Of a stretch of 64,000 bases of DNA, positions 1 to 15,182 are shown piece after piece (position 1 is the first letter of the stretch; each line of letters starts with the position of its first letter). Where the stretch lies: NCBI GenBank assembly GCA_035577985.1, contig DATJZY010000127.1:1-64000 (forward strand). Direction: 5' to 3'. The notes under the pieces are model-generated. The model made no database searches. It saw only the letters and a list, made by a program, of their open reading frames with translations, and was not told the origin of the DNA. A program made the position numbers and the translations under genes. This stretch comes from Candidatus Eisenbacteria bacterium. GTDB lineage: Bacteria > Desulfobacterota > Binatia > DP-6.

Positions 1-2144
1 TCGGTGAGGTTCAGGAGCTGCAGCGACAGCTCGACGTTCCGCCAGCGGTAGCGGGCGATCAGGTCGAGCAGGAAATAGCCGCGCGCGACGAGCGTACGTT
101 GCTCGTTGGCGGGGCGATCGTCGAGGTAGCGCGCGCGGAGACCGACCGAGAGGCCGTTGCCGAACTCGGCCGTGAGGCCGCCGTTCATGAGCAGGGTGGG
201 CGCCAGGGGGATGGCGCCGCCGTTGTCGAAGCGCGGGTCGGCGTAGGAGAGGTCGTAGTCGGCAAACAGCCAGCGCGTGATCTGGTAGCGCGTCTCGAAG
301 TCGATGCCCCAGCGGCGGCTGGACGGGCTCGGCTCGTCGGTGCCGGCGTCGCCCGAGAAGACGAGCTCGCTGTCGAGGTCGAGGAGCCAGAGCGACGCCG
401 CGAGATCCAGGCTGTCGAACTGGCGGGTCCGGGCGCCGAACTCGTAGCCGATCGCACGCGCGAGCGGCGTCACCGTCTGGTCCTCGCCCACGCCCTCGCC
501 GGGGTTCGTGACGCCCGTGAACGCGGCGCCGCCGATCGCCGCGCGCGCGTCGTTCGAGTGAAAGCCCTCGCCGAAGTTGAGGTAGATCTCGGTGTCGCGC
601 ACGGGCGTGATGATGAGGTTCGCCTTGGGGCTCACCTGACCCTGGGTCTGGTAGCCGTCGAGGTAGACGGGGCTGAAGTTCGGATCGGTGCCCTGCTGGG
701 GGAGGCGGTTGTTCACGTCGAAGATGAAGAAGTCGCCGCGCAGCCCGCCGTCGAAGCGCACCCAGTCGTTGAAGAAGATCTGCTGGTTCCAGTAGCCGCT
801 GAACGAATGCTCGCGGACATAGACCTTGTTGATGTCGTAGAAGATCGTCCGGCGCACCTGCCGGTGCAGCGCCACGTCGACGTCGTCGTTGCGGGTTTCG
901 AAGGCGAGCTGCGACTGGAGCGGGATGCCGGCGAGGAACCAGTTGCGCGTGAAGCGCGCCTTCGCGCCGTAGTAGAAGCGGGAGTCGTCCTGCGCGATGC
1001 CGTCGCCGGGGATGTAGTGGGCGCCGGCGCGCACCGGCTTCGCGCGCGTGTCGACGACGGCGCCGTTCGGAAGCTGGACGAAGCGCAGGCCCGTCGAGTT
1101 GAAGAACGTGAAGTCGGAGTACAGGCGCAGCTTGTAGCGGTTGGCGTACGTCTGGACCTCCCACGTGTCGGCGGCCGTCGGCGTGTAGCGCCAGTGGAGG
1201 TCCATGATCTCGCGGTCGGTGTGGCCGCCCTCGGTCGGATCGAGCGAGCCGAAGCGATCGAGCTTCCCCGCCGAGACGAGGCTCAGCGGCACCTGCCCCG
1301 ACCCGTCCCAGTCCGCCTGGTAGCCCATCGTCGTGAGCCACATGTGCGAGAGCGGCGTCGGGTCGAAGCTCATCTTGGCGTAGCCGTTGTAGCGGGCGAG
1401 GTTCTCCGGGTGCTCGAAGGGCCCGTTCGTGTAGTAGGCCTGCGCCGCGATCATCGTCTTCACCTGCCCGACCTGCGGCGAGGCGCCGACGACGTAGCGC
1501 ATGGTGTCGAACGACCCGCCCTCGGCGAGGAAGAAGTTCTCGGCGAACACGTCCTTGGTGACGAAGTTGATCGCCCCGGCGGTCGCGAAGTCGCCGAACT
1601 GCGTGAAGTACGGGCCCTTGTAGAGGCCGACGCGGTCGATCACCTCGGGGATCAGGAAGTTCGGATCCGCGTAGCCCTGCCCGTGGGCGTGGGTCGGAAA
1701 GTTGATCGGCATGTCGTCGACCGAGACGGCGACGTCGGTGCCGTGGTCCGCGTCGAAGCCGCGCAGGAACCACTGCGGCGCTTTCGATCCACCCTGATGC
1801 TGCGCCACCACGACACCCGGCAGGTTGTTCAGGATCTGCATGATCGTCTGGTGCGGGCGGACGTCGAAATCGTGGGCGCGGATGTCCTGCGCCGACGCGG
1901 CGCTCATCGGCTTCCTCGATTCGACCACCAGCTCCTCGAGCCGCGTCTCGTTCTTGCTCGCCGGCGGTGCCTGGTCGGACGAATCCCCTCCCGGATCGGG
2001 CTTTCCGTCGCCTTCTTCAGTCATCTGTTCGCTCGTCGTCGTGGTCGTGTCCGCAGCCGTGTCGTCCGCCGCGCGCGCGACAGCCACCGCGCACGCGACC
2101 CACACGACGATGCCGAGCACACGACCCCTGCAGGATCGCAGCAT
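1..2144 (-). CDS. TonB-dependent outer-membrane receptor (3' end beyond window)
   Basis: The reverse strand reads open from an ATG at 2144 to the window edge, so about 714 residues are visible and the C-terminus is missing. A strong ribosome binding site (GGGAGGAG) precedes the ATG. The protein has a signal peptide, a Thr/Asp/Glu-rich spacer, a possible TonB-box stretch (RLEELVVES), then a plug domain (QTIMQILNNLPGVVV, LRGFDADHG, VSVDDMPINFPTHAHGQ) and alternating aromatic barrel strands. Such receptors import metal chelates or other scarce ligands across the outer membrane using TonB energy. The substrate cannot be read from sequence. The adjacent His-rich exported protein and the copper-themed neighbourhood make a metal or metallophore plausible, which is inference. 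Confidence in the family is high. Confidence 0.93.
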   Translation of the reverse strand, partial: MLRSCRGRVLGIVVWVACAVAVARAADDTAADTTTTTSEQMTEEGDGKPDPGGDSSDQAPPASKNETRLEELVVESRKPMSAASAQDIRAHDFDVRPHQTIMQILNNLPGVVVAQHQGGSKAPQWFLRGFDADHGTDVAVSVDDMPINFPTHAHGQGYADPNFLIPEVIDRVGLYKGPYFTQFGDFATAGAINFVTKDVFAENFFLAEGGSFDTMRYVVGASPQVGQVKTMIAAQAYYTNGPFEHPENLARYNGYAKMSFDPTPLSHMWLTTMGYQADWDGSGQVPLSLVSAGKLDRFGSLDPTEGGHTDREIMDLHWRYTPTAADTWEVQTYANRYKLRLYSDFTFFNSTGLRFVQLPNGAVVDTRAKPVRAGAHYIPGDGIAQDDSRFYYGAKARFTRNWFLAGIPLQSQLAFETRNDDVDVALHRQVRRTIFYDINKVYVREHSFSGYWNQQIFFNDWVRFDGGLRGDFFIFDVNNRLPQQGTDPNFSPVYLDGYQTQGQVSPKANLIITPVRDTEIYLNFGEGFHSNDARAAIGGAAFTGVTNPGEGVGEDQTVTPLARAIGYEFGARTRQFDSLDLAASLWLLDLDSELVFSGDAGTDEPSPSSRRWGIDFETRYQITRWLFADYDLSYADPRFDNGGAIPLAPTLLMNGGLTAEFGNGLSVGLRARYLDDRPANEQRTLVARGYFLLDLIARYRWRNVELSLQLLNLT

Positions 2145-2216
2145 GGCGCTCTCCTCCCTCCGGCGGATCGTGACGAGACACGATCCGCGCACGCTCGTGA
2201 TCGGGGACGATTCGGA

Positions 2217-2645
2217 TCAGAAGCGTGCGAGCGGAGGCGGACCGCGCGAGCGGATCGTCCCGAGGGCGAGTGCGCGGACGGCGGGAAGCGCCGCGGGACC
2301 CTCGGTCATGACGTGGAGCGCGAGCTCGACGTGCGGCGTCGCCGGCGGGGTCGCCGGCTGGAACGGCGAGACGACGTGCGCATGGTGCAGCGGGTCCGCG
2401 GTCCCGTGGGCGATCCGCGGCCGGTGCGCGTGGCCCCGATGGCGCCGCGCGTGCGCCGCCTCGGCGTCGTGATGGTGATGATGATCCGCGTGGTCGTGAT
2501 CGTCGTCGCCGTGCACGAGGAACGCGTGCACGTGATCGTGGTCGCCGCCGGCGTGGCGGTGCGCGACCACCTGCGGGCCGGGAACGGCCGTCGTGGCGGC
2601 GAAGGCCGCCAGCACCAGGACGGCGATGTGGGCGTTCTGCCTCAC
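2217..2645 (-). CDS. His-rich exported protein, probable metal binding
   Basis: This protein of about 142 residues has a hydrophobic signal peptide ending in an Ala-rich site (PQVVA) followed directly by HRHAGGDHDHVHA and a second cluster DHDHADHHHHHD. The predicted mature protein therefore starts with histidine and carries more than 20 His in its first half. The C-terminal half is a plain Val/Leu/Pro-rich stretch with no family I recognise. The GTG at 2645 is preferred because it places the signal peptide at the N-terminus; a GTG at 2663 is also in frame. It lies directly upstream of the TonB receptor on the same strand, so a shared transcript is likely. Periplasmic metal capture or delivery to the receptor is inferred from composition only. 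Confidence 0.72.
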   Translation of the reverse strand: MRQNAHIAVLVLAAFAATTAVPGPQVVAHRHAGGDHDHVHAFLVHGDDDHDHADHHHHHDAEAAHARRHRGHAHRPRIAHGTADPLHHAHVVSPFQPATPPATPHVELALHVMTEGPAALPAVRALALGTIRSRGPPPLARF

Positions 2646-2960
2646 CGGTGTCTGCCCTACCACGCTGTCGAGGTCACGGTCACGGACTTGTTCCTCCCGG
2701 TCCTACGGGCCGGGGTAGGTCGCCGGATGGCGGTTCGCCGCTGTCGAGGGCGCTCCCCATCGCAGGGGGCATGCGACATCGTGTCGCACCTGCGCCCCGG
2801 CGATCGTCCCGGTGCGCTCCGCCGCGCCCACGACCGGAAAGGGCCGCCGAAACCGCATGGTGGGCTAGGGCAGCCGATCGGCGACCGTTCCGACGGATCG
2901 CGCCGGCGGCGCGCACGGTTGCATTGCGCGGTTGGTGCACGTCCGGTAGCGTTTTTCACG
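2646..2960. promoter_or_regulatory. Divergent intergenic promoter region
   Basis: About 315 bp separate the His-rich/TonB unit (minus) from the family A operon (plus). The only strong signal I see is the 17-bp dyad at 2772-2788, listed separately. No convincing gene is present; the open frames across it are shadows. The dyad could serve both divergent promoters. Confidence 0.5.
2772..2788. promoter_or_regulatory. RegA/PrrA-type operator, site 1
   Basis: The site reads TGCGACATCGTGTCGCA, a perfect inverted repeat of TGCGACA around TCG. It fits the published RegA/PrrA pattern YGCGRC-N-GNCGC with a 5-bp spacer. It lies 173 bp before the family A gene at 2961 and 127 bp before the His-rich gene at 2645. 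A RegA homologue is encoded at 12245-12796. Binding is inferred. Confidence 0.65.
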
Positions 2961-3914
2961 ATGCGGCGCAGAGCGTGCTTCCTCATCGTGCTCGCCATGC
3001 TGCCGCGCACGGCCGCATTCGCCCACGAGCACATGTACATCGCGTCCGCCGCGCCCGGCTCGGGCGCGCTCGAACTCGTGGGCTACGATTTCACGCGCGC
3101 CTTCCCCGTCGCCCAGCTTCCGAACGCTCCAGACACCTGGATCGGCGTCGACCCGTCGTTCAATTCGCTCATGGCCGACGATCCCACGAACGGCGCCTAC
3201 CAGATCAAGAAGGGCCGCAAGATCAAGATGGTCCTGACCGCGATCGATCCGGAGCTCAGCGTCGTGCTAAACGGAAAGACCCTACGCCAGCCGGGCGACG
3301 TGGGCGTCGTCGGCAAGATGCCATATCTGCATCAACACCCCCAGTGGACTCTCACGATCCCGCCCGGGAGCGTTGGCACGTTCCACGTCTCGTTCAAGGT
3401 GAAGGGCGCCGGCTACGTCGCGTCCCCGGTGTACACCGGCACGGTGAGCAACGTGGGCGACGCGACGACCACGACCCTGCCCGGTAGCGTGACGACGACG
3501 ACGGTCCCGTCCGACTGCACCGTGACACCCTGCAACGACGGGAATCCGTGCACGACCGACGTCTGCGACGCGGGCACCTGCCGCTACGACCCGGTGACCG
3601 ACGCCGATGCCGTGCTGTGTCGTCTCGAGCAGATGGCGACCGAGCTCAACACGATCACCGCGAGCGGCTCCAAGCAACACGCGGCGCTCGTCCGTCTGTA
3701 CCGGACGACCGGCAAGGCCCGAGCGGTCATGCAAGCGGCGGCCAGCCGGGGGAAGCCGTCGCCGAGGGCGGGACGTCTGGTGAGCCGGCTCACGCAGCTC
3801 ACCGACGCGGCGGATCGCGTGGGCCTCTTCGTCGGATCGGTCGGCGACGAGATACGCACCCTGGCGAGCACCGCATACGACGCGTTCGCTCTTTGGCGCG
3901 CCTCACGTGGCTGA
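2961..3914 (+). CDS. Exported family A protein, copy 1 (candidate histidine-brace copper protein)
   Basis: The product is 317 residues. A signal peptide of about 21 residues ends AAFA, so the mature protein should begin HEHMYIAS. A beta-rich domain follows and ends with MPYLHQHPQWTL, putting an HxH pair at mature residues 103 and 105. After it come a Thr-rich linker, a Cys-rich block (CNDGNPCTTDVCDAGTC) and a helical tail. An N-terminal His plus a distant HxH is the ligand set of the PmoB CuB site, and CopC and LPMOs also use an N-terminal His; I claim no overall homology to these. The start at 2961 was chosen because it gives the signal peptide. Paralogues lie at 9380 and 10600. It is first in a run of five tightly spaced genes. 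Confidence 0.8.
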   Translation: MRRRACFLIVLAMLPRTAAFAHEHMYIASAAPGSGALELVGYDFTRAFPVAQLPNAPDTWIGVDPSFNSLMADDPTNGAYQIKKGRKIKMVLTAIDPELSVVLNGKTLRQPGDVGVVGKMPYLHQHPQWTLTIPPGSVGTFHVSFKVKGAGYVASPVYTGTVSNVGDATTTTLPGSVTTTTVPSDCTVTPCNDGNPCTTDVCDAGTCRYDPVTDADAVLCRLEQMATELNTITASGSKQHAALVRLYRTTGKARAVMQAAASRGKPSPRAGRLVSRLTQLTDAADRVGLFVGSVGDEIRTLASTAYDAFALWRASRG

Positions 3915-3930
3915 GGTGCTGGAGGCTTCG

Positions 3931-4374
3931 ATGGCGTTTCCCCGACTTCGTCCACTGCTCGCCTGCGCAGCGCTCGCTTTTGCCGCGCCCGCGCTGGCGG
4001 CCTCGGGCACGCAGCAGTTCATCGCCGTCCTGAACGGTGGGCAGGTCGTCCCACCCAGCAGCAGCCGCGCCTTCGGCGTCGGCTATCTCACGTACGACAA
4101 GGCGCTGCGCCGCCTGTGCTACACGATCACGTACTCGACGCTCGACGGTCTCGAGACCGACGCGCATCTGCACGGCGGCGAGCCCGGCAAGACGGACGCC
4201 GTGTTCTACGACCTCACGCCCCTCGGCGGTCCGAAGCTCGGCTGCGTCGGCCCGCTGAAGACGAAGGAAGTGAAGCTCCTCATGCACGGTGACACGTACA
4301 TCAACATCCACACCGTGCCCTGGGCCGCCGGCGAGATCCGCGGCCAGGTGCTGCCCATGCGAACCGGCCGATAG
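3931..4374 (+). CDS. CHRD-domain exported protein
   Basis: The 147-residue product has a signal peptide (ending ALA-ASG) and one CHRD domain. Visible hallmarks are FIAVLNGGQVVPPSSS near the mature N-terminus, HLHGGEPG in the middle, and YINIHTVPWAAGEIRGQV near the end. CHRD domains are small beta folds found in bacterial extracellular proteins; their ligand is not established. The ATG at 3931 has GGAGG six bases upstream, better than the in-frame GTG at 3907. The gene starts 16 bp after the family A gene and one base before the next gene, so it is cotranscribed. The His residues resemble those of its operon mates, but a metal role is speculative. Confidence 0.85.
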   Translation: MAFPRLRPLLACAALAFAAPALAASGTQQFIAVLNGGQVVPPSSSRAFGVGYLTYDKALRRLCYTITYSTLDGLETDAHLHGGEPGKTDAVFYDLTPLGGPKLGCVGPLKTKEVKLLMHGDTYINIHTVPWAAGEIRGQVLPMRTGR

Positions 4375-4375
4375 C

Positions 4376-5212
4376 GTGCGTCGGATCGCGAGAACGTTGG
4401 TGGCGCTGGCGCTGGCTGGGTCCGTGTCGACCGCGGCCCAGTGTCCGCCCGACTGCTTCGCGGGCGGCGGCGTCGCCGCGGCCGACTGCCTGGTGCAGTT
4501 CGGCGGCATCGGCGCGGCGAGAACGACGTGCGCCGACGGCGATCCGGCGTGCGACGCCGACGGGGTCGTCGACGGGACGTGCACCTTCGAGCTGACCGTC
4601 TGCATCAACGTGCCCGGCCCGGGCTGCACGCCCGATGCGGTCGTGGGGCCCGTCGTCGGACCGGCGGCGAGCTCCGCCGCACGCGCGCTGGCGGCGGGCG
4701 TGGCCGGACTGGATCCACGCCGCCCGGGGTGTGCGACCGCGCGCGTGCCGGTGCCGCTGCGCGCCGGCCTGCACGGCCTCGCGCCCGCGACGGCGCGTAT
4801 CGTGGTGAGCGCCAAGGGTCGTCGCACCGACCGGGACCGCCTGGTGCTCGGCTGCACGCCGAGCGCGGCGGCACCGTCGTTCGCGGTCGTGGCTCCGATC
4901 TTCGCCGCGCGATGCGCGACGCTCGGCTGTCACACCGTCACGCTCCCCAACAGCACGCCGCCGCTGGAGACGACGGTCGCGCGATCGGCCGTGCTCGACG
5001 TGCCGTCGCTGGACGTCCCGAGCCTGAAGCTCGTGGCCCCCGGCGATGTCGCGGCGAGCTGGCTCGCCCGCAAGATCCTCGGACGCCGGTTGGTCGACCG
5101 CAGCCGGCTCATGCCCGACGGTTGTCCGAAGACGCCACCCGCCGGCGGCTGCCTCACCCCCGCCGACAAGGCCGCCATCGTCGGCTGGATCGCCGGTGGC
5201 GCGCCCGACTGA
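4376..5212 (+). CDS. Exported protein with C-terminal cytochrome-c-like segment, CX4CH motif
   Basis: The 278-residue product starts at a GTG one base after the CHRD stop codon. A signal peptide (ending STAA) precedes a Cys-rich N-terminal half typical of the exported proteins in this locus (CPPDC, CADGDPACDADG). The C-terminal 110 residues resemble small planctomycete-type cytochrome c modules: IFAARCATLGCHTV gives a possible haem site, RLMPDGCPK a possible distal Met, and DKAAIVGWIAGGAPD the usual terminal helix. The haem motif has four residues between the cysteines rather than two. CX4CH haem sites are known but rare, so covalent haem is uncertain. Electron transfer within the operon's process is the simplest proposal. 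Confidence 0.7.
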   Translation: MRRIARTLVALALAGSVSTAAQCPPDCFAGGGVAAADCLVQFGGIGAARTTCADGDPACDADGVVDGTCTFELTVCINVPGPGCTPDAVVGPVVGPAASSAARALAAGVAGLDPRRPGCATARVPVPLRAGLHGLAPATARIVVSAKGRRTDRDRLVLGCTPSAAAPSFAVVAPIFAARCATLGCHTVTLPNSTPPLETTVARSAVLDVPSLDVPSLKLVAPGDVAASWLARKILGRRLVDRSRLMPDGCPKTPPAGGCLTPADKAAIVGWIAGGAPD

Positions 5213-5237
5213 CCCCCAACCCCAGAGGAGAGAGAGC

Positions 5238-5783
5238 ATGCAGCGTACCACCATCGTCGTCGTCGCGACCCTGATCCTCGCAGCGACCAGCGTTCGGGCC
5301 CACGAGTTCCCGACCGTCGCCAAGCAGCTGAAGTCGAGCCTCGTCCAGAACTATGCGCAGTGCACGGCCCCGACGACCATGACGAGCGGCGGCAAGCCGG
5401 CCTGCGGCGGCGAGCCCGATCCCGTCGACACGCAGTGCACCTTCGCGTCGAAGAGCCAGGGGACGCTCACGGCCACCATCAGCAAGACCTCGATCAAGCT
5501 GAAGGCCGCGCTGAAGGGGCTGTCCCCCGCGTGCAACGGCGAAACGCTCACCGCGGCGCTCGGCGTGCGCACGACCACCGACGACTGCCCGGACGGCCAC
5601 TGCACGGTCGTGGACGACGAGATCACCGGCGGCACCTGTACCGTGGCCAAGGGCAAGTGCGCGCTCGCGGCGACCATCCCGACCGGCTATTCGGCCGGCG
5701 CGGGGAGCGAGATGACGGTCCGCACCTGCGGCATACGTCACGGCATGCTCGACGCCTTCACGTGCGGGGTGATGGTTCGATAG
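5238..5783 (+). CDS. Exported family B Cys-rich protein, copy 1
   Basis: The product has 181 residues. Its signal peptide of about 21 residues ends SVRA, leaving HEFPTVAKQLKSSLVQNY as the mature N-terminus. Ten cysteines follow, plus two His positions (CPDGHC and CGIRHG) that are conserved in the paralogue at 11619. I recognise no named family. The three shared His (residue 1, DGHC, RHG) and paired cysteines could form a metal site in a disulfide-stabilised beta domain, which is inference. A good ribosome binding site (AGGAGAGAG) sits before the ATG. It is the fourth gene of the operon starting at 2961. Confidence 0.75.
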   Translation: MQRTTIVVVATLILAATSVRAHEFPTVAKQLKSSLVQNYAQCTAPTTMTSGGKPACGGEPDPVDTQCTFASKSQGTLTATISKTSIKLKAALKGLSPACNGETLTAALGVRTTTDDCPDGHCTVVDDEITGGTCTVAKGKCALAATIPTGYSAGAGSEMTVRTCGIRHGMLDAFTCGVMVR

Positions 5784-5793
5784 AATCGAGATC

Positions 5794-6783
5794 GTGCGCG
5801 CGCGCCGTCTCCTCCTCGTCCTCGTCGCCCTCGCCTCGCGCGCGTCGGCGCACGTCGTCCCCGTCGATCCGAGTCGCTGCACGTTCGACCCGATCGCCGT
5901 CGACGTGCCGGCGCTGGGGCTGAGCGCCGTCGCGACGGCGCCGGCCGGCGGGGACGCGCTGCGGCTCGTGTACGACGTCGGGACGGGCCGCGTGCAGATC
6001 TGTCCCGCAGCGTCGAGCGACGGTGCCGCGGAGTGCCAGCCGTCTCTGCCGGTGGCCTTCTCGCTCGGATCGATCGCCGGGTCGCTCCAGCTACCCACGC
6101 TCTTCGGCGGCGCGTTGTCGTCGAGCGGCGATCTCGTCATCCCCGGGGTACCGATCTTCCTGCAGGCGGGAGCCTCGTCGGCCACCGTGCCGGTGACGTT
6201 CACGACGGGTCTCGCGGTCGCCGGCGACGCCGTGATCGCCGGCAGTCCCATCGCGGGGCTCGATCACGTCGAGCTCGTCGGCGTCGTCATGGCGCCGCTC
6301 GATCCGCCGTTGGGCGGCATTCCGCTGGTTCTGCGGGTCGCATGCGCACCCATTCCGGGACCCGACGTCGACCAGTTCACGAGTCCGCCCCGCGTCGTCC
6401 GTCTCGCGGGCCGCTTGGCGCCGGACCGCGCGCGGCTGAAAGCGACGATCGACTTTCCGGATCCCACACGTACGCTGGCAGCCGGCCCGCTGTTGCTGCG
6501 GCTGGTGGCGGGCGCGTCGACCATCGCGACGGGCTCGGTGTCGCTCGCCCCGCAGGGCAAGGGCCTCGCCGGCGGGGATGCGAGCGGGCGATGGAAGGTC
6601 GTCGCGACACCGCGCAAGCACGCGCGCTGGATCGTCACCCTCGATGTGGCGGGTCCGACGCTCCCGGCAATCGATGGCGCGGGTGCCATCGTCGGGTTCA
6701 CGGCAGACCTCGGCAACGGGATCGCTCGCAGCGAGCGTCGCTTCCGCGCCGCGGCCCATCGCACGCAGCTCCGCGCTTCCTGA
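5794..6783 (+). CDS. Exported family C protein, copy 1
   Basis: The 329-residue product starts at a GTG ten bases after the family B gene. Its signal peptide (about 19 residues, ending ASA) leaves HVVPVDPSRCTFDPI as the mature N-terminus. The rest is Val/Ala/Gly-rich, probably all-beta, with four cysteines (RCTF, ICPA, ECQP, ACAP). It is clearly paralogous to the minus-strand protein ending at 7173 (shared AHVVP, CTFDP/CTIDP, DQF..PP..VVRRLAG, GLTTGL-type strands). No second His is shared by both copies, so a metal role for the N-terminal His is less supported here than in families A and B. No known family recognised. Confidence 0.72.
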   Translation: MRARRLLLVLVALASRASAHVVPVDPSRCTFDPIAVDVPALGLSAVATAPAGGDALRLVYDVGTGRVQICPAASSDGAAECQPSLPVAFSLGSIAGSLQLPTLFGGALSSSGDLVIPGVPIFLQAGASSATVPVTFTTGLAVAGDAVIAGSPIAGLDHVELVGVVMAPLDPPLGGIPLVLRVACAPIPGPDVDQFTSPPRVVRLAGRLAPDRARLKATIDFPDPTRTLAAGPLLLRLVAGASTIATGSVSLAPQGKGLAGGDASGRWKVVATPRKHARWIVTLDVAGPTLPAIDGAGAIVGFTADLGNGIARSERRFRAAAHRTQLRAS

Positions 6784-6816
6784 CGCCCAGCCGGCAGTGA
6801 TCGGTTGCTGGCCCGC

Positions 6817-6833
6817 TGCGACCACATGCCGCA
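6817..6833. promoter_or_regulatory. RegA/PrrA-type operator, site 2
   Basis: TGCGACCACATGCCGCA fits YGCGAC-N5-GNCGCA with one change from a perfect dyad in the right half-site. It lies 40 bp before the small exported-protein gene at 6873 and after the family C stop codon, where a promoter would be expected. Confidence 0.5.
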
Positions 6834-6872
6834 TCGCCCGACCGGGACCGCTTGGGGTAAGCGTGCAGCCCG

Positions 6873-7157
6873 ATGTCCCGCTTCGGAATCGCCATCGTGT
6901 GCGCGGCAGCGGGGCTCGTGGGCTGGACGCCCGCGGCTGTCGTCGCGACTCCTCTGTCGTCGCGTGACGAGTCCGGCGTCATCCGATTCGTCGTGCCCGA
7001 CGACTGGCGGTGCACGTCGAGCGCCGGCTGCGTCGTGTGCTGGAACGCCAGCGGGCACCCGAGCGGCGTGATGCTGCCGTTCGGCGCAAACGGCGCCCCC
7101 CACGCGCGTGAGCTCGATCCCGGCTACGGCTTCGAGCTCTGCCCGCCCGGCGACTGA
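6873..7157 (+). CDS. Small exported protein, unknown function
   Basis: This is a 94-residue product with a signal peptide (SRFGIAIVCAAAGLVGW..VVA). The mature part, about 68 residues, has four cysteines (WRCTSSAGCVVCWN and ELCPPGD) and two His. I recognise no family. An operator-like dyad sits 40 bp upstream, suggesting its own promoter rather than readthrough. It ends 15 bp before the convergent family C gene. Being short, it could be overlooked by gene callers, but the signal peptide, Cys pattern and position support a real gene. Confidence 0.55.
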   Translation: MSRFGIAIVCAAAGLVGWTPAAVVATPLSSRDESGVIRFVVPDDWRCTSSAGCVVCWNASGHPSGVMLPFGANGAPHARELDPGYGFELCPPGD

Positions 7158-7172
7158 AGACCGCCAGCGCGA

Positions 7173-8183
7173 TCAGCGGCGCAGGGCGTTTCCCTCCGGG
7201 TCCGGGTGGAACAGGCGCTCGCCACGGGCGAGGAGCCGACCGGTGTCGAACGTCAGGCCGACCAGCGACGGCCCGCCCTGCGCCACCTTCAGCCCCGTCA
7301 CGTCGAGCATCCTGATCGTCAGGGCCGCGGTGTTGGCTGAGCCCCACTTCACCGTGACGACGACGCGTCCATCGGCGCTGCTCGCGGTGTTCCGTCGCTT
7401 CGCGCGGGTCCATCCGGACACGATCCCCGAAGCGAGCGGCTCGCCGTCGACCCGCAGAACCAGCAGCGCCGATTGTCCCGCGAGAGTCTGCCGGTCGGCG
7501 GGGCCGAGGACGAGCTTCGCGCGCAGGTCGACCTCACGGGCGCCGATCGTACCCGCGAGACGTCGCACGACGCTCGGGCGCACGAACTGGTCCTTGTCGG
7601 GCACCGGACGGGGCACGCACGACAGCCGCACCACGACCGCATCGCTCGGGAGCGGCGGGGGCAGCGCGCCGCCCGGGATCACGCCCAGCATCACCCAGCT
7701 ACCGAGACCCTCGAGCGGCGCACCTGCCATCACGATCCCACCCGCCGCGACGAGGCCCGTCGTGAGCGACAGCGGCACCGTGACGGTGTTCGTACCGGTG
7801 GTGATCGTGACGGGAACGTCGTCGGCGATGAGATCGCCGCTCGACATCATGAGGGCGGTGAAGCGCGCCGGTAGCGCGAGCGTCCCGCCGGCGGCGCCGA
7901 GCGCGAAGCTCCTCGGCGAGGAAGCGCTGCAGTCGCCGGGGTCGGCCGGCGTCGCCGCACAGAACCGGACGACGCTCGCGTTGGCGTCGTACACGCCGCG
8001 CAACGCTCCATCACCTGCGTCACCGGCGCTGCCGGTCGTCCCCGAGGCGGGGATCTCGAGGCCGAGCGGATCGATCGTGCACAGGCTCGGCGGAATCGGC
8101 ACGACGTGCGCCGATGCCGGCCGTGTCACCATGACGACGCCGAGCGCGAGCGCGGCGATGCCGAGACGGTTCAGAAGCGCCAC
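7173..8183 (-). CDS. Exported family C protein, copy 2
   Basis: The 336-residue product starts at a GTG at 8183 that overlaps the end of the upstream barrel gene by 13 bp, which implies translational coupling. Its signal peptide of about 25 residues ends RPASA, leaving HVVPIPPSLCTIDPLGLEI. The remainder parallels copy 1 at 5794-6783: a beta-rich protein with CVPRPVPDKDQFVRPSVV and a C-terminal Ig-like stretch. Divergence from copy 1 is substantial, so the duplication is old. Function unknown; an extracytoplasmic location is well supported. Confidence 0.75.
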   Translation of the reverse strand: MALLNRLGIAALALGVVMVTRPASAHVVPIPPSLCTIDPLGLEIPASGTTGSAGDAGDGALRGVYDANASVVRFCAATPADPGDCSASSPRSFALGAAGGTLALPARFTALMMSSGDLIADDVPVTITTGTNTVTVPLSLTTGLVAAGGIVMAGAPLEGLGSWVMLGVIPGGALPPPLPSDAVVVRLSCVPRPVPDKDQFVRPSVVRRLAGTIGAREVDLRAKLVLGPADRQTLAGQSALLVLRVDGEPLASGIVSGWTRAKRRNTASSADGRVVVTVKWGSANTAALTIRMLDVTGLKVAQGGPSLVGLTFDTGRLLARGERLFHPDPEGNALRR

Positions 8184-9184
8184 GTCACCCCTCCCCGGAC
8201 ACGCACGTCGGGAACGAGCTGGAGGCCCGTATTGTGCTGCAGCACCGGCAGATCGACGGCGACGTCCGCGCTGAGCGACGTCTCCCAGGTGAAGCTCACG
8301 CCCGGCCCGATGTAGAGGGAGGTGATCGCGGTGTCGTTGGCCTTGTGCCCCTGCTGCGTGTCGTTGCCCTTGGTCTCGCCCGAGAGCACGGCCTGCAGGC
8401 CGAGCGTGTGGTCGTGCTCGAGGAGGAGGTACCAGCCCGGTCCGCCGACCCACGTGAGGTCGTTGGCGTAGCGGTAGTCGAACGCGCCGGTGCTGCGAAT
8501 AGCGTACTGCATGCCGCCGGCGACGAAGGCGCGGTGCCAGTTCCAGAAGATCTGGCCGCCGACGATGCCGTCGTATGATCCGGAGCCGAGCGCGAGGTCG
8601 TGGCCGTGGAGCCCGCCTTCGAACGGCAGAAGATCCGACGGCGTCCGCGCGGCCGCGTACGTACCCATGCGCTGGGCCGCGGACGTCGCGCGCCGCACCG
8701 GTGCGGTCGTGGGCTCGACGAACTCCTCGCCGAGCTCGCTCGGATTCCCGGTCGGGAACTTGATCCCGCCCAGGATCGAGAAGCGCAAGAGGGCGTCGCC
8801 GATGATCGTGCTGTAGGCGAGGAAGTCGCCGAGGAGCGTCATGTCGCCGACGCCGCTCACCGTCCCGCTCTGGAGCTCGTGGTCGTGAATGCGGGTGAAG
8901 CTCCGGTAGATGTAGGGAATGTTCAGCTGGAGCCAGAGCCGGGGCGTGAAGGTGTAGCCGAGCACGAACTGCGTGACGAAGCTATCCATGTGCTCCTTGG
9001 CGGGCAGCGTCACCTCGTGGCCGCCCTGGAGCTCGGTTCCGAAGTAGCTGTACTGCTCCGCGACGCCGAACCAGAAGCCGGGCTGCGCCTCGCGCTGCTC
9101 GGTGGCGGTGTAGACGGCACAGATGTCGCACGCCGCGGCCCGCGCCGCGATGCCGAGTACGATCAAGAAGCAAAGACGAATCAT
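8171..9184 (-). CDS. Outer-membrane beta-barrel protein, transporter-like
   Basis: The 337-residue product has a signal peptide (MIRLCFLIVLGIAARAAA), then CDICAVYTATEQ at the mature N-terminus, then alternating aromatic strands (FWFGVAEQYSYFG, LWLQLNIPYIYRSF, GGQIFWNWHRAFVAGGMQY) and a C-terminal TWRF ending in Phe, as expected for an outer-membrane barrel. A CDIC motif right after the signal peptide and several HEHM/HDHE/HGHD clusters in loops could bind metal. The ATG at 9184 is chosen for the signal peptide; the longer in-frame start at 9298 would bury it. It leads a two-gene unit with family C copy 2, divergent from the family A/B operon, and three operator-like dyads lie between them. 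Confidence 0.75.
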   Translation of the reverse strand: MIRLCFLIVLGIAARAAACDICAVYTATEQREAQPGFWFGVAEQYSYFGTELQGGHEVTLPAKEHMDSFVTQFVLGYTFTPRLWLQLNIPYIYRSFTRIHDHELQSGTVSGVGDMTLLGDFLAYSTIIGDALLRFSILGGIKFPTGNPSELGEEFVEPTTAPVRRATSAAQRMGTYAAARTPSDLLPFEGGLHGHDLALGSGSYDGIVGGQIFWNWHRAFVAGGMQYAIRSTGAFDYRYANDLTWVGGPGWYLLLEHDHTLGLQAVLSGETKGNDTQQGHKANDTAITSLYIGPGVSFTWETSLSADVAVDLPVLQHNTGLQLVPDVRVRGGVTWRF

Positions 9185-9233
9185 CGGGCGGGAAGATGTC
9201 CCCCCGCTTATCCGGACGTCGCACCCGCCACAA

Positions 9234-9250
9234 CGCGACCGATTGCCGCA
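9234..9250. promoter_or_regulatory. RegA/PrrA-type operator, site 3
   Basis: CGCGACCGATTGCCGCA keeps both half-sites and the 5-bp spacer. It lies 50 bp upstream of the barrel gene (start 9184, minus strand). Confidence 0.5.
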
Positions 9251-9290
9251 CGCGCCACTGGAGCCGCCAATCGGCACCGCGATCGGGGGG

Positions 9291-9307
9291 TGCGACAACG
9301 TGACGCA
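9291..9307. promoter_or_regulatory. RegA/PrrA-type operator, site 4
   Basis: TGCGACAACGTGACGCA is a near-perfect dyad matching site 1 at 15 of 17 positions. It is in the middle of the divergent promoter region between 9184 and 9380. Confidence 0.6.
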
Positions 9308-9333
9308 CCCTGGCGATCCTTGATTCGACCGGG

Positions 9334-9350
9334 CGCGACAATCGGTCGCA
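9334..9350. promoter_or_regulatory. RegA/PrrA-type operator, site 5
   Basis: CGCGACAATCGGTCGCA is a dyad of GCGAC/GTCGC with a 5-bp spacer. It ends 30 bp before the family A gene starting at 9380. Confidence 0.6.
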
Positions 9351-9379
9351 TTCCCGGATGGGGACCTGCGCGATACGGG

Positions 9380-10603
9380 GTGAGGGTGTTTGCCCGCGTG
9401 CTGCTCGGCCTACTGGTCGCGACGATGGCGCGCGAGGCCGGTGCGCACGAGCACATGATGATCGCCTCCGACGCCCCGGGCGGGGGCGCCCTCGCCCTCG
9501 AGTACGACTTCGCTCGCCGCTTCCCCGTCCTGCCCACCGCCACCCCCGGTGTGTTCGAGGGCGACGATCCGGCGTTCGCGGCCCTGCTCGCGGACGATCC
9601 CGCAAACGGCTTCTACCGCGTCACCGACGGCACCAAGGTGACGCTCTTTCTCGTGGACGTCGACCCCGCCGTGAGCCTCACCATCGAAGACAAGACGCTC
9701 GACGCACCAGGGGACCGCGTCGTCATCGGGAACATGCCCTTCCTGCACGTCCACGTGACGTGGACGCTCGCCGTTCCACCCGGCACGATCGGCGAGTTCC
9801 CGGTCTCCTTGCAGATCCGGGGCCGCGACTACGACGACTCGCCCGTCTACGTCGGGTGGGTGTCGAACGTCCCGACCACGACGACCACGACCGAGCCCGA
9901 GCCGACGACGAGCTCGACCAGCGTGCCCACGACGACGACCTCGACGACGAGCGGACCGGGGGCCACCACGACGACGACCTCGACCTCGACGAGCTCGCCC
10001 ACCTCGACGACGACGAGCACGTCGACCACGACATCGACGAGCTCGACGACCACGCCCGCCGCCTCTACCTCCACCACGACCAGCTCGTCGTCGACCACGA
10101 TCGCACCGGCGTTCACGGACGAGCCACTGCCGGGAACGTCCCTGGCGATCGCCGACAAACCCGCCGTCACGGCTCGCCGAACCTTCACCGCCGTCGCGAA
10201 GACGGCGCCGATCACCCTCGGCGAGGCCGGGGCGGACGACCCGACGACGACGGGCGCCCGGCTCCGGATCGCCGGAGCGACCTTCGACCTCACGTTCGAT
10301 CTGCCGTCGGCGCGCTGGCGGGCGCTGGGTGGTGCCACGCCGAGCGGGTTCGCCTATGCCGACAAGCCGCGTGCGCACGGTCCGGTCACCGCGGTCCAGG
10401 TGAAGCGCGACAAGATCTTCAAGGTGACCGCAAAGGGGCCCGGTCTGGCGCTCGATCTGGCGGCGAGCCCGTACCCAGTCACGGTCGTTCTCACGATCGG
10501 GCACCATCGACACTGTCTGTCGTTTGGGGGCGACGTCCGCTTCCGCGCCGGCCGCTCGTTCAAGGCGACCGACGCACCCGCGCCCGCGACGTGCACGCCA
10601 TGA
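9380..10603 (+). CDS. Exported family A protein, copy 2, with Thr/Ser linker and extra C-terminal domain
   Basis: The 407-residue product starts at a GTG (9380; a second in-frame GTG lies at 9386). The signal peptide ends EAGA, leaving HEHMMIASDAPGG. The family A domain ends with NMPFLHVHVTWTL, so mature His 1, 3, 101 and 103 are kept. A long Thr/Ser-rich linker (about residues 175-250) follows. The C-terminal part of about 155 residues (DKPAVTARRTFTAVAK..., HHRHCLSFGGDVRFR) is absent from copies 1 and 3 and replaces their Cys-rich block and helical tail. Its stop codon overlaps the next ATG (ATGA), so copies 2 and 3 are translationally coupled. Confidence 0.78.
   Translation: MRVFARVLLGLLVATMAREAGAHEHMMIASDAPGGGALALEYDFARRFPVLPTATPGVFEGDDPAFAALLADDPANGFYRVTDGTKVTLFLVDVDPAVSLTIEDKTLDAPGDRVVIGNMPFLHVHVTWTLAVPPGTIGEFPVSLQIRGRDYDDSPVYVGWVSNVPTTTTTTEPEPTTSSTSVPTTTTSTTSGPGATTTTTSTSTSSPTSTTTSTSTTTSTSSTTTPAASTSTTTSSSSTTIAPAFTDEPLPGTSLAIADKPAVTARRTFTAVAKTAPITLGEAGADDPTTTGARLRIAGATFDLTFDLPSARWRALGGATPSGFAYADKPRAHGPVTAVQVKRDKIFKVTAKGPGLALDLAASPYPVTVVLTIGHHRHCLSFGGDVRFRAGRSFKATDAPAPATCTP
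9880..10110 (+). repeat. Low-complexity Thr/Ser codon repeat inside family A copy 2
   Basis: A run of degenerate acgacgacc/tcgacgagc triplets encodes an almost pure Thr/Ser linker. Such linkers separate domains on secreted proteins and change length easily by slippage. Similar shorter runs occur in copies 1 (near 3460-3510) and 3 (near 11090-11160). Confidence 0.8.
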
Positions 10604-11568
10604 GGGCGGCGCCGTGGGCGGTTCTCGTCCTTGCCGTCGCCTCCTCGGCGGGGGCCCACGAGCACATGTACATCGCATCGACTGCATCGGGCTCGGGAAC
10701 GCTCGTTCTGGCTGACTACGACTTCGCCCGCCCTTTCCCCGTGGTCGAGCTTCCGAACGCGCCCGGAACGTCGATCGGCGTCGATCCGTCCTTCGATGCG
10801 TTCGCCGCCGACGACCCGGCGCGCGGCCTCTACCGGATCAAGAACGGACGCAAGATCACGATGCAGATCACGGCGATCGATCCGGACCTGACCGTCGTTT
10901 TCAACGGCAAGACCCTGCAGGCGCCGAACGACCGGGTGGTGATCGGGAGCATGCCGTACCTGCACCAGCATCCCCAGTGGACGCTGACGCTTCCGCCCGG
11001 CACCGTCGGCTCCCGCCACGTGTCGTTTCTCGTGCGAGGCGAGGGCTACCAGCCGTCGCAGGTCTACACGGGCGTCGTGACCAACGTCCCCGACACGACC
11101 AGCACCACGACGACGCTGCCGGACGGCGTCACCACCACGACCACGACCACGCTCCCGCTCGACTGCACGGTCGCGGGCTGTGACGACGGCGACGCGTGCA
11201 CGACGGACGTCTGCGTGGACGGCGCCTGTCGCTTCGATCCGGTCGCAGGCGTCGACGCGGTGCTCTGTCGGCTGGAGGACCTCTCGGCCGCGCTCAACGA
11301 CGTCACGACGACCTCCCGGGCCGGCCGCCGCGCCTTCGTACGGCTCTACCGAGCCGTCGGCAGGGCGCGAGCGAGCGTCCAGGCGGCCGCCGGCGGGCCC
11401 ACGACGCGTCGCCTGCACCACGCGAAGAAGCTCGTGAGTCGCTTGACGCCGCTCGTGGACACGGCCGTGCGCGCCGGGCTCTTCACGGGACCGCGAGCCG
11501 ACGTCCTGCGCGATCTCGCGAGCTCCGCCTACGACCAACTGACCATCTGGAGCGCCTCGCCGGGCTGA
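10600..11568 (+). CDS. Exported family A protein, copy 3
   Basis: The 322-residue product starts at an ATG overlapping the previous stop codon. Its signal peptide (about 19 residues) ends SAGA, leaving HEHMYIASTASGSG. SMPYLHQHPQWTL gives the HxH at mature 103/105, identical in spacing to copy 1. The Thr-rich linker, Cys-rich block (CDDGDACTTDVCVDGAC) and helical tail also match copy 1 closely, so copies 1 and 3 are the nearest relatives. It is followed by family B copy 2, the same A-then-B order as in the first operon but without the CHRD and cytochrome genes. Confidence 0.8.
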   Translation: MRAAPWAVLVLAVASSAGAHEHMYIASTASGSGTLVLADYDFARPFPVVELPNAPGTSIGVDPSFDAFAADDPARGLYRIKNGRKITMQITAIDPDLTVVFNGKTLQAPNDRVVIGSMPYLHQHPQWTLTLPPGTVGSRHVSFLVRGEGYQPSQVYTGVVTNVPDTTSTTTTLPDGVTTTTTTTLPLDCTVAGCDDGDACTTDVCVDGACRFDPVAGVDAVLCRLEDLSAALNDVTTTSRAGRRAFVRLYRAVGRARASVQAAAGGPTTRRLHHAKKLVSRLTPLVDTAVRAGLFTGPRADVLRDLASSAYDQLTIWSASPG

Positions 11569-11618
11569 GGACCGCGCGCGCCGCTCGCGTTCAACGTACA
11601 CCAACGAAGGAGGAAGGA

Positions 11619-12170
11619 ATGAAGCGTATCACCCCCGCCCTCGCGATCGCCGCGGCGATCGCCTTCAACAGCGTCCCCGCGGACGCCCACGAGTTCCCGA
11701 CCAAGGCGAAGCAGTTGAAGTCGAGCCTGGTCCAGAACTACGCCCCGTGCCTGGCTCCCGACACGGCGACGAACGGCGGGACGCCGGCCTGCGGCGGCGA
11801 GCCCGATCCCGTCGACACGCAGTGCACGTTCGCGTCGAAGAGCCAGGGCTCGCTCACCGTCGCGATCAGCAAGACCGATCTCAAGGTGAAAGCGAGCCTC
11901 AAGGGTCTCTCCCCGGCGTGCGACGGCGAGACGCTCACCATCGCGCTCGGCGTGCGCACCACGACCGACGATTGCCCGGGCGGTCACTGCACCGTCATCG
12001 ATCAGGAGGTCACGGGCGGCACGTGCACCGTCGCGGGCGGCAAGTGCTCGATCTCGACCGCCATCCCGAGCGGCTACTCGGCGGGCGCCGGTAGCGAGAT
12101 GACGATCCTCACCTGCGGGGTCCGGCACGGCGCGCTCGACGCCTTCGCCTGTGGCGTCATGGTGCCCTAG
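11619..12170 (+). CDS. Exported family B Cys-rich protein, copy 2
   Basis: The 183-residue product follows a strong ribosome binding site (AAGGAGGAAGG). The signal peptide ends PADA, leaving HEFPTKAKQLKSSLVQNY. It aligns end to end with copy 1 at 5238, with all ten cysteines and the three His positions (residue 1, GGHC, RHG) retained. Function is unknown. It is the last gene of the operon starting at 9380 and converges on regA across a 13-bp inverted repeat. Confidence 0.76.
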   Translation: MKRITPALAIAAAIAFNSVPADAHEFPTKAKQLKSSLVQNYAPCLAPDTATNGGTPACGGEPDPVDTQCTFASKSQGSLTVAISKTDLKVKASLKGLSPACDGETLTIALGVRTTTDDCPGGHCTVIDQEVTGGTCTVAGGKCSISTAIPSGYSAGAGSEMTILTCGVRHGALDAFACGVMVP

Positions 12171-12244: not shown

Positions 12245-12796
12245 TCAGCGTCTCGTCGGGAACTTCGCGAGCTTGCGCTGCAGGGATCGGCGGTGCATGC
12301 CGAGTCGCCGCGCCGCCTCAGAGATGTTGCCCCCGCAGTCGGCGAGGACGCGGTTGATGTGCTCCCACTCGACGCGCGCGAGCGAGAGCGGATCGGACGG
12401 TACGTCGGCGATCGGTGTCGCGGGCGCATCGACCCGCGCGAACGCCGCGAGAATCTCGTCTACGTCGGTGGGCTTCGTCAGGTAGTGGGTTGCGCCGAGC
12501 CGGACGGCGTCGAGCGCGGTCGCGATGCTGCCGTAGCTCGTCAGCACGACGATGCGGGAGCCGGGATCGAGTGCGTGCAGCTCGCGCACCACGTCGAGCC
12601 CCGAGGCGTCGGGCAGGCGCAGGTCGACGACGACGTACTCGGGCGAATCGGCGTGCGCGGAAGCGATCGCAGCGCGCCGGTTCGCGGCCTGACGCACCTC
12701 GAAGCCGCGGTCACGAAACGCCCGCGCCAGCCGGACGCGGAAGACCTCGTCGTCGTCTACGAGGAGGATGGTCGGAGGGCTCGCGACCTCGCTCAT
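12245..12796 (-). CDS. regA: RegA/PrrA/ActR-family response regulator
   Basis: The 183-residue product has a receiver domain (TILLVDDDEVF, phospho-acceptor in VVVDLRLPDASG near residue 56, TSYGS and the Lys in TKPT) and a Fis-type DNA-binding helix-turn-helix at the C-terminus (GGNISEAARRLGMHRRSLQRKL), the conserved RegA/PrrA signature. RegA-type regulators control redox-, oxygen- and energy-linked genes. Its ATG overlaps the last bases of regB (ATGA). Six copies of a sequence matching the known RegA/PrrA site lie upstream of the exported-protein units around it, so they are the likely local regulon. Confidence 0.92.
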   Translation of the reverse strand: MSEVASPPTILLVDDDEVFRVRLARAFRDRGFEVRQAANRRAAIASAHADSPEYVVVDLRLPDASGLDVVRELHALDPGSRIVVLTSYGSIATALDAVRLGATHYLTKPTDVDEILAAFARVDAPATPIADVPSDPLSLARVEWEHINRVLADCGGNISEAARRLGMHRRSLQRKLAKFPTRR

Positions 12797-14085
12797 GCGG
12801 CGCGTTTCCCGTGGACGAGAACCGCCGTCGGGAGCCGGAGCGCCGCCCGGACGCCGCGCCCCGGCGGCGAGGACAGATCGAGCGATCCGCCAAGCTCCTC
12901 GGCGAGCGTCCGGGCGAGGAACACCCCGAGCCCGAGCCCCCGTCCCGGCCCCTTCGTCGTGAAGAACGGCTCTCCGCAGCGCGCGAGGACGTCGGGCGGC
13001 ATGCCCGGCCCGTCGTCCTCGATCGCGAACTCGAGCGTAGCCGGCCCGAGATCGACCGCGACGCGCACCGCTCCGTCTGGGGTGCTCGCGTCGAGCGCGT
13101 TGTGGACCAGGTTCGCGAGCACCTGGACCAGAGCGCGGCGCGGCACGTTCAGTCGGAGCACCGGACGCGGGAGGGACACGGCGACACGTGACACGTTTCC
13201 GGGCGGCAAGGCGGAGAGGGTGTCGTCGATGAGCGATCGCAGGTCGACCATCGTCGGGGCCTCGCCGGCCGGCCCGCCCGCGTCGCTCGCCAGCAGATCG
13301 AGGATGCGGCGGCAGCGGGAGACCTCGGACCGGATGAGACGCGCGTCGTCGCCGAGGGCGATGGCGCGCGATTCGGGAAGCGTCGCGACCGCTCGCTCGA
13401 GCTCGGTCGCGACGACGGCAATGGTCGCGAGCGGCGTGCCGAGCTCGTGCGCCGCGCCCGCGGCGAGCGTCGTGAGAGAGGCCAGACGCTCCGCACGGCT
13501 CGCCTGCTCCCGCACGCGCGCGAGCTCCGCGTCGCGCCCCTCGATCGCCGCCGAGAGCTGGACCACGAAGTACGCGGTGAGCGCGGCGGCCAGCATGAAC
13601 GCGATCCACATCCCCTGGAGGTGGAGCGACAGCATGCCGCCGTCATGGGCGTGCATGGGCGCGATGGCGGGGAATGGAACCGCCAGGAAGAGCGCGCCGT
13701 AGCACGCGACGGCGAGCCCGGCGAGCGCCCAGGTCCATGCCGCGCCGAGCACCACCGCCGCGAGCGTGATGTGGACCAGGTAGAGGATGCTGAACGGGTT
13801 GAGGGGACCGCCGGTGGCCTGGAGGAGTCCCGTCAGGAGCACGGTGTCGAGCGCGAGCACGGCGCCGCACAACGGGCGCGTAGCCACGTGCCCCCGCGCG
13901 AGCCACACGGCGAGCGCGAGGTTGCTGGCAGCCCCCGCGGCGATGATGGACAGCACTCGCGCGAGCGGCATGGGCTCCGCGAACTGATGGACGACGGCGA
14001 CGGCGGCGAGCTGACCGGCCGCCGCGCCCCAGCGCAGACGGGTGAGCCATGGAAGGCCCACCGCAGTTCGATCGGTGACGTGCAT
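12793..14085 (-). CDS. regB: RegB/PrrB/ActS-family redox sensor histidine kinase
   Basis: The 430-residue product has six membrane segments in the first 165 residues, with GGPLNPFSILYLVHI in the loop region. This matches the GGxxNPF quinone-sensing motif of RegB. The H-box is GAAHELGTPLATI (His near residue 213) and a cysteine in the dimerisation helix (RCRRILDLL) corresponds to the redox-active RegB Cys. The ATPase motifs follow (NLVHNALDAS, DDGPGMP, GLGLGVFL). RegB senses quinone redox state and phosphorylates RegA. The ATG at 14085 was chosen over one at 14118 because the shorter start matches the family N-terminus. A degenerate operator-like sequence (14101-14117) sits just upstream, hinting at autoregulation. 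Confidence 0.92.
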   Translation of the reverse strand: MHVTDRTAVGLPWLTRLRWGAAAGQLAAVAVVHQFAEPMPLARVLSIIAAGAASNLALAVWLARGHVATRPLCGAVLALDTVLLTGLLQATGGPLNPFSILYLVHITLAAVVLGAAWTWALAGLAVACYGALFLAVPFPAIAPMHAHDGGMLSLHLQGMWIAFMLAAALTAYFVVQLSAAIEGRDAELARVREQASRAERLASLTTLAAGAAHELGTPLATIAVVATELERAVATLPESRAIALGDDARLIRSEVSRCRRILDLLASDAGGPAGEAPTMVDLRSLIDDTLSALPPGNVSRVAVSLPRPVLRLNVPRRALVQVLANLVHNALDASTPDGAVRVAVDLGPATLEFAIEDDGPGMPPDVLARCGEPFFTTKGPGRGLGLGVFLARTLAEELGGSLDLSSPPGRGVRAALRLPTAVLVHGKRAA

Positions 14086-14200: not shown

Positions 14201-14608
14201 TCAGCCCGCGCGCCGCGGTGGGGGAACGGGCGGGGCTGGTCCCGGGGCCAGCCGTCCGCCCGTCACGTCACGCGGTCCGGCGACGGCGACGAGCAGCGGC
14301 TCGATGCGACCGTCGTCGGGCGGCAGGGTGACCAGAGCGCCGGTCGCGTCGGCGGGCGTCCGGCCACACCGGGCACCGAACGCGCACTGCGAGCCGTCGC
14401 GGTCGTTGGCGGCCGCCGCTCCGGGACCGTGAGGCGCAGCTCGGTTCCCGTGGTGGCAGCCGAGGCGCCTCGATTCAGTGCGGCCGTGCATCGGGCAACC
14501 GGGCGGACAGCGATCGCAGGAGCCGAGCGGGGTGATCGCACCGGCAGAGGCCAGCGCCAGCACGAGTACGATCGCGCACGCGCGCCGGCCGTCCATGGTC
14601 CCGGCCAT
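14201..14608 (-). CDS. Small Cys/His-rich exported protein
   Basis: The product is about 135 residues. A signal peptide (RRACAIVLVLALASAGA) is followed by CDRCPPGCPMHG and GCHHGN, clusters that look suited to Cu(I) or Zn binding. The remainder is Pro/Ala/Gly-rich without recognisable domains. The start at 14608 has GGAAG at suitable spacing; an ATG at 14596 is also possible. It is divergent from the Csp1-like gene, and an operator-like dyad (14635-14651) ends the shared promoter. Copper handling is suggested by composition and neighbours, not by homology. Confidence 0.55.
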   Translation of the reverse strand: MAGTMDGRRACAIVLVLALASAGAITPLGSCDRCPPGCPMHGRTESRRLGCHHGNRAAPHGPGAAAANDRDGSQCAFGARCGRTPADATGALVTLPPDDGRIEPLLVAVAGPRDVTGGRLAPGPAPPVPPPRRAG

Positions 14609-14750: not shown

Positions 14751-15182
14751 ATGAACGTGACACGAAGGACCGTGTTGCTGGCGGCAGCGAGCGCCGTCGT
14801 GGCGCAGGCGGCGAGCCGGGCGCTTGCGGCCGGTGAAGCTCCGGCCGCCGCGCCCGCCGGAGCCCTCGCGGACGCCGCGGGCAAGTGCGTCGTCGTCGGG
14901 GACGCCTGCTTGCAGCATTGCCTCGACCTGCTCGGCAAGGGCGACACTACGCTCGCCGAGTGCGCGCAGAGCGTGCGCCAGATGCTCGCGATCTGCGCCG
15001 CCGTCGGGCCAATCGCCGCCGCCGGCGGCAAATACTTGAAGAGTACGGCCCGCGTCTGCCTGGACGTCTGTACCGACTGCGAGCAGGTCTGTCGCAAGCA
15101 CGAAGCGCATCACGCCGTCTGCAAGGAGTGCGCGGACGCGTGCGCTCGCGTCATCGTCGAGTGCAAGAAGGTCCTCGCGTAG
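14751..15182 (+). CDS. Tat-exported Csp1-like copper storage four-helix bundle
   Basis: The 143-residue product has a twin-arginine signal (TRRTVLLAAASAVVAQ...RALA), then a four-helix bundle with 13 cysteines pointing inward: CVVVGDACLQHC, ECAQSVRQMLAIC, CLDVCTDCEQVC, CKECADACARVIVEC. This is the pattern of the Csp/DUF326 family. Csp1, described in a methanotroph, stores many Cu(I) ions for copper enzymes; the Tat signal makes this protein Csp1-like rather than the cytosolic Csp3 type. A strong AAGGAGG precedes the ATG. It fits the copper theme of the locus and shares its promoter region with a Cys/His-rich gene. Confidence 0.9.
   Translation: MNVTRRTVLLAAASAVVAQAASRALAAGEAPAAAPAGALADAAGKCVVVGDACLQHCLDLLGKGDTTLAECAQSVRQMLAICAAVGPIAAAGGKYLKSTARVCLDVCTDCEQVCRKHEAHHAVCKECADACARVIVECKKVLA

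Follow-up and report, generated by a model that had tools for sequence, protein, structure and literature searches.

Exported proteins with predicted N-terminal histidines at a putative copper-acquisition or copper-sensing locus of a Binatia genome

The start of contig C127, from the 5.7-Mb genome of a Candidatus Eisenbacteria bacterium, encodes a group of exported proteins predicted to begin, once processed, with histidine. An earlier note on this DNA had counted eight such proteins from at least four unrelated families, all within positions 2217–12170, and had seen in them the mark of copper histidine-brace proteins. Does the N-terminal histidine have a common basis in these families, and is this a copper locus? 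Here we analyzed a window of 64,000 nucleotides beginning at the first position of the contig. Gene calls and signal peptides were heuristic, and signal cuts were predicted by a (–3,–1)-rule scan.

All eight open reading frames highlighted earlier are present. A good AxA↓His cut was found in seven exported proteins encoded between 2961 and 12170, comprising three members of family A, two of family B and two of family C. A1 (2961–3914), A2 (9386–10603; from its ORF and homologues) and A3 (10600–11568; from its ORF, homologues and a structural model) lie on the plus strand, and their predicted mature forms start with HEHM. B1 (5238–5783; from its ORF and homologue comparison) and B2 (11619–12170), also on the plus strand, would start with HEFP; C1 (5794–6783, plus strand) and C2 (7173–8183, minus strand) would start with HVVP, B2, C1 and C2 being assigned by homologue comparison. 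The scan placed the cut at A↓H in A2, A3, B1, B2, C1 and C2, and a separate run gave A↓H for all of A1–A3. For a small His-rich protein known from its ORF (HRHAGGDHDHVH...RGPP; 2217–2663, minus strand), which is exported or membrane-anchored, the scan preferred A↓ATTAVPG over VVA↓HRH. At locus L159 its homologue HRHAGGEHAHVH adjoins a TonB receptor gene; there the sequence is LVYHRHAGGEH, and HRH is not preceded by a cut site. Seven of the eight proteins and three of the four families are thus supported, whereas the cut in the His-rich protein, the fourth family, is uncertain.

As background we used a sample of the same genome, namely 40 contig ends totaling ∼579 kb. There, His occupied +1 in 4 of 151 non-lipoprotein signal peptides, or in 5 of 157 when contig C52 was included (∼3%). 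At the locus, 7 of about 12 exported proteins have His at +1, far above background. A1–A3 form a single clade (SH-aLRT 100) and B1 and B2 are 80% identical, so there are three independent families out of about eight, not eight separate cases. A binomial estimate for three of about eight families is ∼1e-3, before allowing for the pattern having been picked by a reader. The local excess of His1 is genuine but reflects three families plus local duplications.

Among the families here, only C has His1 as a fixed feature, judging from sequence comparisons. Family C, most of whose occurrences are in the taxonomic family to which the window belongs, keeps A↓H in all eight members that have an N-terminus (6/6 in the alignment). 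Across the six aligned sequences H1, C10, C165, D172 and D174 are invariant, H1 being the only invariant His, and no second conserved His was found. Residues 1–9 are unstructured in the AlphaFold model (pLDDT <50), the alignment behind which holds six sequences only. No significant relative of C emerged from sequence and fold searches of the PDB, and Pfam and NCBIfam gave no permease domain, setting C apart from the HupE/UreJ permease architecture of Ang-1 and Ang-2. Across ∼30 stretches of family B and 53 proteins of family A, the first residue of homologues varies (Q, D, G, C or others). Family B homologues have starts such as QSFNVP, QRNPPKK and QLVEPAH; His1 is not conserved among them and is a feature of the window's lineage. 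Among the 39 A proteins with a confident non-lipoprotein cut, His is at +1 in 7, of which three are from the window; 10 start with Gln-His, and Asp, Gly, Cys or Trp occur among the remainder. N-terminal Gln is prone to cyclise. His somewhere within +1 to +3 is seen in 18 of these 39 proteins versus 12 of 151 in the background (p 2e-7). With this enrichment, and only 7/39 at +1 itself, A tends to have a tail that bears His, without the first residue being fixed. Provided that the cut is predicted correctly, HEH of A1–A3 fits an X-X-His (ATCUN) site for Cu(II) or Ni(II); HEH is not conserved in other A proteins.

These comparisons bear on the idea that four unrelated exported families build a copper histidine brace on the N-terminal His of the mature protein. 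In its favor are the seven A↓H cuts, the 8/8 retention of His1 in family C and the existence of 'mono-histidine brace' proteins (PMC12537917). Yet His1 is unconserved in A (7/39) and in B, many A homologues begin with Gln-His, C has no second conserved His and an N-terminus modeled as disordered, and A has no significant structural match to CopC (rank 39, E 0.024). A brace as the common basis is very improbable, and this part of the earlier proposal is not supported. Alternatively, the +1 His may be incidental whatever the metal, consisting of lineage-specific, gene-duplicated tails in A and B plus a structural residue in C. The single clade of A1–A3, the near-duplicate B1 and B2 and the B homologues lacking His1 all agree with this, but family A as a whole is enriched in His close to the mature N-terminus. 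HEH and HRH sequences also make good ligands for Cu(II). We regard an incidental His as possible, if on balance rather improbable; it concerns nothing but the tail and would go with copper or zinc alike. More probably, the His at or near the mature N-terminus is a variable metal-scavenging tail, as opposed to a brace shared by the families. An N-terminal His by itself, unless homologues are checked, predicts a histidine brace poorly.

Conservation within family A points to a different part of the protein. A1 consists of a signal peptide, HEHM, a beta domain carrying LHxHP (3021–3458), a Cys-rich linker and a C-terminal region; the motif reads LHVHVTW in A2 and LHQHPQW in A3 (domain at 10654–11091). 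The A domain spans 145 residues and is modeled with high confidence as all beta (pLDDT 97.3 for the A3 domain). It has no Pfam or NCBIfam assignment, and neither sequence nor fold searches of the PDB returned a significant relative (best fold E 2e-3, TM 0.3–0.4). The two His residues of LHxHP are near-invariant (57/59 and 55/59), making the motif the strongest conserved candidate metal site of A. Residue 1 of the domain is Asp in 35 of 40 sequences and His in the other 5, three of which are the HEHM proteins of the window. In fusions of A to MbnP or MbnH, the second His of the motif is Asp (HxD, not HxH), so metal binding by A may differ among subgroups. A kynurenine-forming Trp in LHxHPxW is not required, since Trp is replaced by Tyr or Phe in 23/59 sequences. 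TIGR03769 surface repeats gave no match in the sampled A-bearing genomes.

Which metal might such a site bind? The functional locus is wider than the span first described, reaching from a TonB receptor gene at the contig start through a Csp1 gene ending at 15182. The TonB-dependent receptor (3–2192, minus strand; Pfam Plug, 7e-16) continues past the contig start, and its L159 homologue (51% identity) has a CDICAVY protein and an MbnP-A fusion as neighbors. Following A1 are genes for an exported CHRD-domain protein (3931–4374, plus strand; Pfam CHRD, 5.5e-22) and a Cys-rich exported protein with a cytochrome c-like CATLGCH motif (4367–5212, plus strand; no Pfam or NCBIfam match). Protein D (8171–9184, minus strand), assigned from a genome survey and adjacency, is exported, with a mature start at or near CDICAVY. 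Beyond B2 lie genes for an ActR/PrrA/RegA-like response regulator (12245–12796, minus strand; NF033791, 3.1e-59) and an ActS/PrrB/RegB-like histidine kinase (12793–14085, minus strand; NF033792, 1.2e-74), both matches falling below their cut-offs. Next is a small exported protein with the motif CDRCPPGCPMH (14201–14608, minus strand), recognized by its L159 homologue, which has CDLCPPDCPMH and is encoded between the TonB receptor and D. The Csp1-family copper storage protein (14751–15182, plus strand) has an RR-type leader and 13 Cys and matches TIGR04401 with 124 bits against a cut-off of 100 (4.5e-36), bearing out the earlier claim of a Csp1-like protein beside the cluster. Farther along the contig, AztB- and AztC-like genes are found at 52–54.6 kb.

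When genomes were searched for families A, B and C, as had been suggested, His1 proved to be kept only in C. Of 148 genomes of the class, 20 carry family A, commonly in arrays of three to five; the family was absent from out-of-class genomes within a 395-genome sample of the phylum. At L159, A is fused to MbnP (TIGR04052, 2.4e-81; A at residues 329–480), and at L164 to MbnH (TIGR04039, 4.4e-140; A at 449–596). A adjoins an MbnP-MbnH fusion, D, TlpA-like and RegB/RegA proteins at L038, D plus RegB/RegA at L033, L050 and L162, and a di-heme MbnH-like protein at L032, L033 and L034. At L033 the latter is beside a CorA-like copper protein (PF18252, 1.3e-4, below cut-off). L159 repeats the His-rich, TonB-receptor, CPMH and D genes of the window. 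Protein D, present in 38 of 143 genomes, is linked to MbnP/MbnH in other genomes and adjoins them at L156, L157 and L158. Of the 20 genomes with A, 18 also have D (expected 5.3, p 1e-10) and 12 have MbnH above its cut-off (expected 2.9, p 2e-7), by tests that ignore shared ancestry. In the window's own genome, a second A array (on C52) adjoins a di-heme MbnH-like protein, and MbnH relatives were seen only below cut-off, the listed places being on other contigs. A search for MbnP gave no match there, nor did any positive control match in that search. CopD was not found in this genome, and a VgrG-like coding stretch was the lone match, a false one, in a scan of its contigs.

With D, the RegB/RegA-like pair, the TonB receptor and its His-rich partner, the CPMH protein and Csp1, the window is of the copper type. 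The A-MbnP and A-MbnH fusions, the conserved linkage of A with the CDICAVY protein D and RegB/RegA, and Csp1 support a role in copper handling, as the earlier note had proposed, and they are stronger evidence for it than His1. On the basis of these gene contents, we consider it fairly likely that this cluster of exported proteins serves to acquire or sense copper and is related to loci of the MbnP/MbnH and CorA/SACCP types.

Other A loci have a different setting. At no fewer than seven of them (at least L036, L039, L040, L042, L045, L047 and L048), zinc genes stand in place of copper genes, the partners of A arrays being ZnuD-like receptors (1e-91 and 4e-79), Fur/ArsR regulators and an AztABC or ZIP transporter. 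From our reading of the neighborhood tables, no examined locus combined copper-type and zinc-type genes. ZepA (All3515) is a Zur-repressed zinc exoprotein whose mature N-terminus carries His1, His4 and His6 (PMC10957091). The main rival to the copper reading is that A is a distant ZepA/All3515-like, Zur-regulated exoprotein supplying captured zinc to a TonB receptor of the ZnuD kind. The zinc-type partners of A arrays and the N-terminal histidines of ZepA are in line with this. Counting against the copper reading are also the AztB- and AztC-like genes on the window contig, the A tree, in which copper context is not one clade, the HxD motif of the MbnP and MbnH fusions and the missing MbnP match in this genome. 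The all3515 family NF040463 is also weakly matched by 10 of 48 A members (best 3.5e-5), and hhalign paired A with a true All3515 member at E 3.8e-4. But no A locus exceeds the NF040463 cut-off of 75 bits, and the hhalign match has a probability of 36% and covers the C-terminal half only. In that alignment LHxHP falls on LMFTPTFW of the All3515 member, which has no HxH there, and the H-X2-9-H-F/Y-H site of ZepA is not at the A motif. A PEP-CTERM tail is absent from the C-termini of A1–A3. As judged from these sequence comparisons, membership of A in ZepA/All3515 fails. None of the Zur/Fur palindromes tried was convincing in the window, although the Zur box of this class may differ from those tried; one clean palindrome, AATTGCAATT, occurs at L036 between a Fur-type gene and CxxC/TonB-receptor genes. 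Furthermore, the neighbors in the window are copper-type, and its A clade groups, with weak to modest support (80), with L050/L162, which are RegB-RegA-A-D loci. We consider a zinc function for this locus unlikely. A broader reading, to which we give about the same low weight, is that A is an undescribed exported metal-site domain in copper and zinc loci alike, its metal set by local partners; the window would add the N-terminal HEH Cu(II) site, and C would be a new mono-histidine-brace protein.

Under the copper reading, the A proteins would bind metal, here most likely copper, in the envelope or outside the cell, through LHxHP and the first-strand Asp/His. The HEH tail of the window's A proteins may aid this as an X-X-His Cu(II) site. 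Uptake through the outer membrane, of either the metal or a metal carrier, would fall to the TonB receptor and its His-rich partner; the small CPMH protein and protein D may act in the envelope, Csp1 would store Cu(I), and the RegB/RegA-like pair could regulate the gene set. MbnP and MbnH occur widely outside the methanobactin producers, and PMC3621798 called their broader role unclear. What is new here is probably domain A, an unannotated candidate metal-site domain found at other loci in fusion with known copper proteins. Conserved, fused to both MbnP and MbnH and present also at zinc-uptake loci, it offers a handle on metal capture by exported systems.

How does the locus compare with known systems? 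The earlier view that no described system matches was only partly right, as the neighborhood represents a variation on copper loci of the MbnP/MbnH and CorA/MopE types. CorA/CorB and MopE/SACCP are copper-repressible surface proteins. The likeness to them lies in the MbnH-like di-heme protein next to A at three loci and the CorA-like protein at L033; they were not found in the window, however, and the CorA match is below the Pfam cut-off. ZepA/All3515 resembles A in being exported, in its His-bearing N-terminal tail, in the zinc-gene neighbors at some A loci and in weak sequence similarity, but A has no H-X2-9-H-F/Y-H at the homologous place, shows no PEP-CTERM and scores far below the cut-off. 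LPMO, CopC, PmoB and Ang-1/Ang-2 (PMC12537917) share a mature N-terminal His, predicted in the present case, and differ in that His1 is not conserved in A or B and C lacks a second conserved His. With the MbnP/MbnH pair (TIGR04052/TIGR04039; PMC3621798) the locus has in common exported proteins, a linked TonB receptor, a RegB/RegA-like regulator and protein D, and in relatives A is fused to either one; the window has neither, and contains free-standing A proteins instead. Finally, the protein encoded at 14751–15182 is a member of Csp1 (TIGR04401), and its adjacency to A and D genes is particular to this locus among those sampled.

The window's own genome carries a second array of family A genes, which encode exported all-beta LHxHP domains with a putative metal site. 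At this locus (L032, G000:C52, 37-5069), three A genes lie beside a gene for an MbnH-like di-heme protein and one for a His/CxxC protein.

Within the window, 56032-56367 (-) encodes another small exported protein whose predicted +1 residue is His: the cut would fall between VVAGA and HHHAAHSATQPCATC, and the sequence ends in RGPP. The RGPP ending is common to this protein and the His-rich protein of 2217-2663. Similar His/CxxC/RGPP proteins are found near the A arrays of L032, L034, L036, L040 and L043. Also in the window, genes for an AztC-like zinc-binding protein, an AztB-like permease and an MFS/spermidine-synthase-like fusion protein are grouped at 49552-54588 (-). The spermidine-synthase-like family adjoins A arrays as well, at loci L035, L038, L040, L041, L042 and L047. 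Elsewhere in the window, judged from sequence only, 22310-31165 (+) would encode a putative Kdp potassium system (KdpA, KdpB and a KdpD-like sensor kinase) followed by a sigma-54-type regulator, and 60063-63963 (-) a row of probable SPFH/HflK-like proteins, one with a permease fusion.

In a second genome of the window's taxonomic family (L155, G063:C4, 7718-11055), one gene separates protein D, the exported CDICAVY protein, from family C, whose two exported members in the window have a predicted HVVP mature start. At another locus, L169, a CopD gene lies near a family C gene, weakly suggesting a tie between family C and copper.

A true member of All3515/ZepA, the Zur-repressed zinc exoprotein family, is encoded in a genome of the same class as the window (L144, G016:C309, 357-1238; 285.8 bits), where it adjoins a CDF-like transporter gene.
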